64,000 nucleotides of DNA from Verrucomicrobiaceae bacterium. GTDB lineage: Bacteria > Verrucomicrobiota > Verrucomicrobiia > Verrucomicrobiales > Verrucomicrobiaceae. The stretch is taken from positions 1-64,000 of the forward strand of contig CANGYJ010000018.1 of assembly GCA_947458455.1 (NCBI GenBank), in the 5' to 3' direction. This document shows positions 54,086 to 57,605 of the stretch, piece by piece. The notes below the pieces were generated by a model. It had not been told where the DNA came from, did no database searches, and worked only from the letters and a program-made list of their open reading frames with translations. Each line of letters opens with the position of its first letter. The stretch's first letter is position 1. A program made the translations under genes and the position numbers.

Positions 54086-55525
54086 TCAGAACTTCGGAAA
54101 CTTCATGCCCGGAGGCAGTTTGGGCATTTTGCCACCGCCGCCCATGCCGCCCATGCCGCCGAGAAGGCCACCGAGGCCGCCCATGCCGCCACCAGCGCCG
54201 CCGCCCATCATGGCATTGGCCATCTGCATCATGGCACCTTGGTTCTTCATCATCTTTTTCATCATCTCGAACTGCTTCAAGAGCTGGTTCATCTCCATAA
54301 CGGGACGTCCGGCACCGTTGCAGATGCGCTTGCGACGCTGGCCGTTGATGATTTCGGGGCGCTGGCGCTCCTTCGGCGTCATGGAAAGGATGAGAGCCTC
54401 GGTGTGCTTCATTTTGCGCTCGGCGTCGTCGTTGCTGACCATGTCCTTCATCTTGCTCATGCCGGGGAGCATGCCGAGGAGGCCGCCGATGCCACCACCG
54501 GAGGTGAGCTTCTTCATCATGCGCATCTGGGAGAGCATGTCGTTGAAGTCGAATTTGTTGCTCTGCATGCGCTCGGCCATTTTCATGGCCTCCTTCTCAT
54601 CGATCTCCTCGGCGGCTTTTTCGACGAGGCTGACCACGTCACCCATGTCGAGGATACGCTGCGCCATGCGGTCCGGGTGGAAGACTTCGAGCTGCTCGAT
54701 CTTCTCACCGACACCGAGGAACTTCACCGGGCGCCCGGTGACCTGACGCATCGACAGCAAAGCACCGCCGCGAGCATCGCCATCGAGCTTCGTCATGATG
54801 AGGCCGGTGATGCCGACGGCGTCATTGAACTTCTGCGCGACGCTGACGGCCTGCTGACCGGTAGCGGCATCGGCGACGAGCAGCGTCTCGCTCGGCTGCA
54901 CGATCTCGCGAACCTTTTTGAGCTCGGCGAGGAGATCCTCATCGAGATCCTGACGACCAGCGGTGTCAAAGATGGCGACGCCGGTGCCTTGAGCCTTGAG
55001 CCATTCCAGCGCGGCCCTGGCGGCCTTCACGGGATCGGTTTCACCGGCGGCAGGCGCAAAGACGGGCACACCGATTTGTTGGCCGAGCACCTGGAGCTGC
55101 TGAATGGCGGCAGGGCGATACAAATCGAGGGCGAGGAGCAGTGGGCGTTTGCCTTGTTTTTTGAGCCAGCTGGCGAGCTTGGCGGAGGTGGTGGTCTTGC
55201 CGGCTCCATTGAGACCGGTCATGAGAATGCGCTGCGGCGGATCGAGGCTAAGCGGCGCGGCCTGGCCGAGGATCTTGACGAGTTCATCGTGGAAGATTTT
55301 CACGATCTGCTGGCCGGGCGAGACGGTGCGCAGCACCTCAGAACCGATGGCCTGCGCCTTCACGGTGGTGACCAGGTCTTTGGCGACCTTGAAATCGACA
55401 TCGGCCTCCAGCAGCGCCATGCGGATGTCCTCCATGGCATCGGTGACGTTGGATTCGCTGATCTTGGCCTGGCCGCGGAGCTTCTTGAAGGCGAGTTCGA
55501 GTTTTTCGGTAAGGGAGGAAAACAT
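54086..55525 (-). CDS. ffh: Signal recognition particle protein Ffh
   Basis: A 479-residue SRP54/Ffh GTPase that delivers nascent membrane proteins to FtsY. The N-domain begins FSSLTEKLELAFKKLRGQAK, the G-domain has GLNGAGKTTTSAKLA (P-loop), DTAGRQDLDE and TKLDGDARGG, and the M domain is methionine-rich. The C-terminus carries an unusual stretch of Gly/Met repeats (GGAGGGMGGLGGLLGGMGG) before KMPKLPPGMKFPKF. The ATG at 55525 was chosen from the family N-terminus, with AGGAGG-like AAGGGAGGAA on the complementary strand, so no normal ribosome site is visible. Confidence 0.96.
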   Translation of the reverse strand: MFSSLTEKLELAFKKLRGQAKISESNVTDAMEDIRMALLEADVDFKVAKDLVTTVKAQAIGSEVLRTVSPGQQIVKIFHDELVKILGQAAPLSLDPPQRILMTGLNGAGKTTTSAKLASWLKKQGKRPLLLALDLYRPAAIQQLQVLGQQIGVPVFAPAAGETDPVKAARAALEWLKAQGTGVAIFDTAGRQDLDEDLLAELKKVREIVQPSETLLVADAATGQQAVSVAQKFNDAVGITGLIMTKLDGDARGGALLSMRQVTGRPVKFLGVGEKIEQLEVFHPDRMAQRILDMGDVVSLVEKAAEEIDEKEAMKMAERMQSNKFDFNDMLSQMRMMKKLTSGGGIGGLLGMLPGMSKMKDMVSNDDAERKMKHTEALILSMTPKERQRPEIINGQRRKRICNGAGRPVMEMNQLLKQFEMMKKMMKNQGAMMQMANAMMGGGAGGGMGGLGGLLGGMGGMGGGGKMPKLPPGMKFPKF

Positions 55526-55605
55526 GGGCGGCGGATCGTGAGCAGATTGGGACGCGGGGCAAGGTGAATGACGCTGGCAGCTTGTCTCGCCCCGCAAAGA
55601 CCACT

Positions 55606-56976: not shown

Positions 56977-57013
56977 AAAAAAAACGCCTGATCGGGCAAG
57001 ATCAGGCGCTTTT
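56977..57013 (-). terminator. Rho-independent terminator of efp (bidirectional)
   Basis: A perfect 9-bp stem (CGCCTGATC at 56985-56993 with 57000-57008) with a 6-base loop is followed by eight T on the minus strand (56984-56977) and five T on the plus strand. It lies 30 bp after the efp stop. Confidence 0.87.
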
Positions 57014-57038: not shown

Positions 57039-57605
57039 TCAGTTCACGCGGCCGAGGTAAGTACCGTCTTCGGTCTTCACGCTGATCCTGTCGCCAGGGC
57101 CGATGAAGAGAGGGACCTGCACGCGGAGGCCGGTTTCCATGATGGCTTCCTTGTAAACATTGTTGGCGGAATCGCCCTTCACGCCTTCGGGAGACTCAGC
57201 GACAGCCATCGCGACGGAGGCGGGGAGTTCGATCCCGGCGACGACATCGTCGGCGAGGAGGATCATGTACTTCTGGCCCTCGATGAGGTAGTCTTTTTCC
57301 TTTTTCACCATGTCCGAGCCGAGGAGTACGTCCTCAAAGGTATCCGGGTGCATGAAGTGGTAGCCATCGCCATCCTTGTAGCTGAACTCATGCTGATCGC
57401 GGGAGAGGTTCACGGAGTCGAGGGACTCGTTGGAGGTCATGCGGAGGTTATACACCTTGCCGATGGTGATGCTGCGGATGGACATCTGAACGAAAGAGGC
57501 CATACGCGGGGGCGTCTTGAGCTCGAAATCGGACACGACACAGACGTCGTTGTTATAACGGACGGCATGTCCTTTGCGAAGGTTGATGACAGGTGTGGAG
57601 GCCAT
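57039..57605 (-). CDS. efp: Elongation factor P
   Basis: A 188-residue EF-P that rescues ribosomes stalled at polyproline. Domain I is VINLRKGHAVRYNNDVCVV; the tip loop reads LKTPPRMASFVQ, with arginine where E. coli EF-P has its modified lysine 34. Domains II and III are normal (YHFMHPDTFEDVLL; VYKEAIMETGLRVQVPLFI; GDRISVKTEDGTYLGRVN). It ends at a strong terminator. Upstream lies a distinctly AT-rich stretch (57712-57765) that probably holds its promoter. Confidence 0.93.
   Translation of the reverse strand: MASTPVINLRKGHAVRYNNDVCVVSDFELKTPPRMASFVQMSIRSITIGKVYNLRMTSNESLDSVNLSRDQHEFSYKDGDGYHFMHPDTFEDVLLGSDMVKKEKDYLIEGQKYMILLADDVVAGIELPASVAMAVAESPEGVKGDSANNVYKEAIMETGLRVQVPLFIGPGDRISVKTEDGTYLGRVN

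Follow-up and report, generated by a model that had tools for sequence, protein, structure and literature searches.

An arginine-tipped, diproline-containing loop in elongation factor P of Verrucomicrobiales and its possible function without modification

Described EF-P tip loops and the form found here

Elongation factor P (EF-P) is commonly held to require a modified residue at its tip. The EpmA-type protein of Escherichia coli carries Lys34 in the loop KPGKGQA and is accompanied by epmA, whereas EarP-type proteins carry an arginine in an SGR motif without proline at position −2 and are accompanied by earP. The 5-aminopentanol type of Bacillus subtilis also needs a lysine acceptor. The protein examined here has Arg34 in the seven-residue loop TPPRMAS and agrees with each of these types only in part. 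It shares Pro32, loop length and overall fold with the EpmA type but lacks both the lysine and an epmA match over the cut-off, and it shares loop length and the tip arginine with the EarP type but has PPR in place of SGR, with no earP found. Arg34 likewise sets it apart from the B. subtilis type.

Three further systems are associated with the absence of a modification. The EF-P of Thermus thermophilus has a similar fold and also an arginine tip (Arg32 replacing Lys34), in a loop that to our knowledge has no diproline. Loop stiffness instead of modification is the actinobacterial case, in which the unmodified protein (PGKGP) keeps a lysine at the tip of a palindromic loop; the TPPRMAS protein may resemble it in this stiffness. 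The section of PMC2821294 cited here places the T. thermophilus arginine near C75 of the P-site tRNA and proposes that it is an adaptation to a missing modification. In the part of PMC11611912 on which we draw, loop stiffening and loop lengthening are the two routes to modification-free function, the tip arginine of E. coli EfpL (YeiP) is unmodified by mass spectrometry, and EfpL is stated to occur in the PVC group. EfpL resembles our protein in having an arginine tip with an upstream proline, but its loop is extended (SPTARGAAT) and it is mostly found alongside another EF-P of the lysine type, whereas the present protein is the sole copy found. We rejected an assignment to EfpL on the basis of the seven-residue loop and of low scores against both EfpL models (TIGR02178, 120.5 against 264.05; NF003392, 127.4 against 216).

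Experiments with E. coli EF-P, as given in the available portion of PMC6544042, found about 20% activity for unmodified K34R, less when EarP was present, and none for K34N, so an unmodified arginine or asparagine tip is not automatically functional. The same portion reports that Pro32 blocks activation through rhamnosyl-arginine, that proline at −2 occurs in just 2.33% of arginine-tipped EF-Ps, and that glycine at position 33, which is a proline in the protein described here, is crucial for modification efficiency. In the open-access literature we found no description of the PPRMAS loop type, nor, in titles and abstract openings, any treatment of EF-P from Verrucomicrobiota or Akkermansia.

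The efp locus and its loop

The window (the whole 64,000-nucleotide stretch of DNA analysed) contains a complete efp open reading frame of 188 aa at positions 57039–57605, starting with ATG. The preliminary description gave these coordinates correctly, and our ORF analysis adds that the gene lies on the minus strand. All three EF-P domains score over their cut-offs (PF08207, 39.1 bits; PF01132, 52.5; PF09285, 75.5). The protein also passes the NCBIfam model NF001810 (180.1 bits, cut-off 161) and falls marginally under the equivalog TIGR00038 (179.3 against 185.8). A profile search of the source genome (5.35 Mb in 28 contigs, approximately 96% complete) returned one match for the EFP_N (KOW) domain and one for the OB domain, and thus a single EF-P. 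The closest named relatives, 97 to 91% identical, are on contigs titled Verrucomicrobiaceae or Prosthecobacter and point to a source in the Verrucomicrobiales.

The loop comprises residues 31–37 and is encoded on the minus strand at 57515 to 57495 by ACG CCC CCG CGT ATG GCC TCT, with the Pro32-Pro33 codons at 57507–57512 and the CGT codon of Arg34 at 57504–57506. It aligns without gaps to the KPGKG loops of the Staphylococcus aureus, Clostridium thermocellum and E. coli proteins. In the one-to-one comparison with E. coli KPGKGQA, Pro32 is kept, Gly33 is replaced by proline, Lys34 by arginine and Gly35 by methionine, such that Pro32 is the proline of lysine-type loops and Pro33 stands where glycine is usual. 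An AlphaFold model (pLDDT 87.5, pTM 0.67), for which 24 sequences from the window and the loci served as input, predicts the EF-P fold, with a TM score of 0.88 by query length against ribosome-bound EF-P (6enj_w), and places TPPRMAS as the entire β3-Ω-β4 tip loop between the strands at 20–30 and 38–45. Translation and alignment thus bear out the earlier observation of an arginine-tipped loop that is neither of the E. coli (PGK) nor of the EarP (SGR) type.

Downstream of efp, a hairpin at 56977–57008 on the minus strand, with a nine-pair stem followed by eight T, is likely the intrinsic terminator of the gene. This candidate lies 30 bases past the stop codon and its T run was read directly on the minus strand; its stem (56985–57008) comes from a hairpin scan that assigns it to the plus strand and whose total number of sites is not above that in shuffled sequence. 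A promoter scan gave no candidate. Elsewhere in the window, a minus-strand ORF at 54086–55597 resembles ffh (SRP54) by eye and is a putative homolog with a Met- and Gly-rich end containing LPPG.

Distribution and history of the loop

For the order, we read the loop in 93 genomes, a subset of those with an EF-P match in two genome searches whose outcome is independent of the loop sequence. PPRMAS was present in 58 of them. The remainder carried TPGKGNA (28), both TPGKGNA and TPPNNRA (2), TPGNLNG (2), TPGKGAG (2) or TPPNNRA (1). EF-P in Verrucomicrobiales is therefore not uniform, and a separate lysine-tipped lineage exists alongside the arginine-tipped one. The two genomes with a pair of EF-Ps (L266/L267 in G475 and L268/L269 in G486) are possibly relics of a two-copy stage, reached by duplication or transfer, from which lysine-only and arginine-only species later emerged. 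Each PPRMAS genome scanned gave one EF-P match.

Every genome-search match that is at least 62% identical to P0002 and whose loop was read carries PPRMAS. Among 111 tblastn rows (80 loci from a search of named contigs, 29 first genome matches and the source genome, counted twice), 110 carry PPRMAS with T, C or K just before it, and the single exception is a TPGNLRA protein of 47% identity. The named-contig search used RMASFVQM as one of its six seeds, which biases that set toward the motif; the genome searches are free of this bias. Contigs named Akkermansia (including Akkermansia muciniphila) and Prosthecobacter are among those with the loop. PPRMAS is thus a real, clade-wide loop beyond chance. 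At E 0.001, 12 of 387 genomes in the first search and 4 of 112 in the order search had no EF-P match.

Loops read elsewhere in the class were TPGNLRA (one TPGNLRG), TQGRQAG, TPGRRMA, TPPNLTS, TPPNNAS and two TPGKGQP. The TQGRQAG proteins (L122, L118, L127 and relatives) form a second arginine-tipped clade, with glutamine at −2, within a phylum sample that lacks any EarP match. The TPPNNAS and TPPNLTS proteins (L142, L152, L153, L156, L162 and L165) represent an independent gain of a diproline with an asparagine tip. Outside the class, the 14 genomes read had one EF-P each, with KPGKG loops in 13 and TPGKGQA in one.

We built trees with the loop columns excluded, using a quick method without bootstraps, and 31 forks were poorly supported, leaving the deep branching order unsure. 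In the first tree, 30 PPRMAS proteins formed one clade (SH-aLRT 100) beside or nested among asparagine-tipped EF-Ps. In the second, three TPPNNRA proteins were the nearest outgroup, with support of 100 for the joint clade and 98 for the PPRMAS clade. Nine columns differ in a fixed manner between the arginine clade and TPGNLR proteins (conserved in at least 93% of 30 and at least 85% of 31 rows, respectively, an extra N-terminal Met column being excluded), and six of these fall within residues 30–37. These rows were picked by motif, so the invariance of the loop rests on the genome matches. Since the nearest relatives have asparagine tips, TPPNNRA and then TPGNLRA, the simplest history is probably TPGNLRA → TPPNNRA → TPPRMAS, in which Gly33 changed to proline first and Asn34 later changed to arginine together with changes at positions 35–37. 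The second tree requires at least seven changes at the tip and two at position 33. The tip is therefore labile, and an arginine-specific enzyme is unnecessary to explain the arginine.

The diproline had also been noted to resemble a hard-to-translate motif within EF-P itself. Such a motif might act as an autoregulatory stall that couples EF-P synthesis to EF-P activity, and PPR does occupy residues 32–34 in all 110 PPRMAS rows. Nevertheless, in 117 loci (some from near-identical genomes) the loop diproline is encoded by 15 different pairs of proline codons, indicating that the amino acids are conserved rather than a nucleotide signal. The diproline is also located precisely within the functional loop and its change was accompanied by changes elsewhere in that loop, E. 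coli EF-P itself has a TPPN at another site, and TPPP, a comparison for TPPR but not identical to it, is termed a weak reporter in the portion of PMC8129111 cited here. We therefore consider a self-stall very improbable, and this part of the earlier interpretation is not supported, whereas its reading of the loop type is.

Modifying enzymes and the state of Arg34

EarP (PF10093), whose presence, together with a rhamnose mass shift on the arginine, would have made this an ordinary EarP-type protein according to the preliminary description, was found neither in the source genome nor in any of 374 genomes of the phylum or 112 of the order. The built-in control genomes gave no EarP match, and for that reason we added two earP-bearing records, Shewanella baltica and Ilyobacter polytropus, in which the model scored 501 and 331 bits and earP adjoins efp. 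The tip arginine speaks for a rhamnosylated EF-P, but Pro32 is present and Gly33 absent, unlike in SGR loops, and EarP-type proteins are distant in the trees. We rejected the EarP-type identity on these grounds (no earP found, wrong loop, distant tree position) and give it practically no credence. As judged from the loop and the trees, the arginine tip is not derived from the rhamnosylated type.

EpmA (TIGR00462) was likewise not found over its cut-off in 150 genomes of the class or 112 of the order, the source genome included. In a set of 16 chosen genomes, six had EpmA over the cut-off, all of them among the seven from outside the class, and the match lay within approximately 100 bases of efp in five of the six (G211 being outside the comparison). 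The seventh, G004, has a lysine tip (TPGKGQA) and no EpmA over the cut-off. The same combination occurs in the lysine-tipped genomes of the order and class that were tested, for example in G237, G240, G354 and G378 (TPGKGNA), and at the TPGKGQP loci L166 and L167 (G289 and G339). Loss of EpmA alone, therefore, does not predict an arginine tip. Sub-cut-off EpmA matches occur in nearly all class and order genomes, and the best of them usually lie in frames roughly 500 aa long that would be lysyl-tRNA synthetases.

For EpmB, none of the 150 class genomes scored over the cut-off, although 135 had a match at E 0.001. Most of these matches score 230–270 bits and read as KamA-type lysine aminomutases. 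The source genome, which lacks EpmA over the cut-off, has one such lysine aminomutase-like match (G000:C17:60687–61637; 257.6 bits against a cut-off of 369.3). In genus group g5, probably Akkermansia, 13 of 18 genomes have no full-length match to the model. The suggestion that this EF-P has a different modification or none is consistent with these searches, in which neither EarP nor EpmA was found.

We also examined the flanks of efp for a linked modification gene. In 79 loci, many with short flanks, clustering of ORFs of at least 100 aa recovered efp, together with its antisense shadow, at every locus and an efp-overlapping frame at 22, and other groups had at most 15 members. The window's cytochrome-c-like neighbor was found at 3 of 109 loci and its M48 neighbor at 2 of 109, in a search in which 29 loci had just 1.5 kb of flank and query 58970 contains a stop; three other loci had L,D-transpeptidase matches at 37–38%. 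We rejected a linked modification gene, there being no conserved neighbor in the 79 loci.

These results bear on the possibility that Arg34 carries a not-yet-known modification, for example another sugar, a hydroxyl or a methyl group, added by a non-EarP enzyme that is not encoded beside efp. The best-studied EF-Ps are activated by modification (as stated in the cited parts of PMC11611912 and PMC6544042), and PPRMAS is retained while whole-protein identity drops to about 63%, as an enzyme recognition site might be. Against this stands the lack of a conserved efp neighbor, whereas earP and epmA adjoin efp in controls, and the asparagine of the nearest outgroup, given which any arginine-specific enzyme would need to have been recruited anew. 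We regard such a modification as possible but improbable, and the more specific version, in which a clade-specific enzyme makes a modification new to EF-P and PPRMAS is its recognition site, as doubtful.

Alternatively, the tip might be weakly active and proline stalls might mostly be cleared by Uup/YfmR-like ATPases of the ABCF group or by further factors. The source genome has three ABC_tran_Xtn matches over the cut-off, and the part of PMC11381351 used here ties both EF-P and the ABCF proteins YfmR and YkpA/YbiT to stall resolution. Their presence says little, however, because the ABCF linker model also matches 8 of 14 control genomes. The loop, moreover, is conserved, and ORFs of the window contain runs such as APPPPPV. 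We consider this explanation unlikely.

The explanation that we favor, with a probability of roughly 0.6, is that this EF-P works with an unmodified Arg34 on a proline-stiffened loop. As expected of its family, it would serve as a housekeeping EF-P that binds next to the P-site tRNA on ribosomes stalled at proline, where it aids Pro-Pro bond formation as other EF-Ps do. Its tip arginine would remain unmodified, and the diproline would stiffen the loop in place of a modification, a route that TPPRMAS fits. The protein would then be fully active, and because K34N is inactive and Gly33 matters in E. coli EF-P, compensation would be needed in this clade, perhaps in the remaining loop or in the ribosome.

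Labelling arginine-tipped EF-Ps as EarP-type would be an error for the PPRMAS clade, and its asparagine-tipped relatives show the likely order of the evolutionary steps. The clade offers a direct test of modification-free EF-P function, or would reveal a new modifying enzyme.
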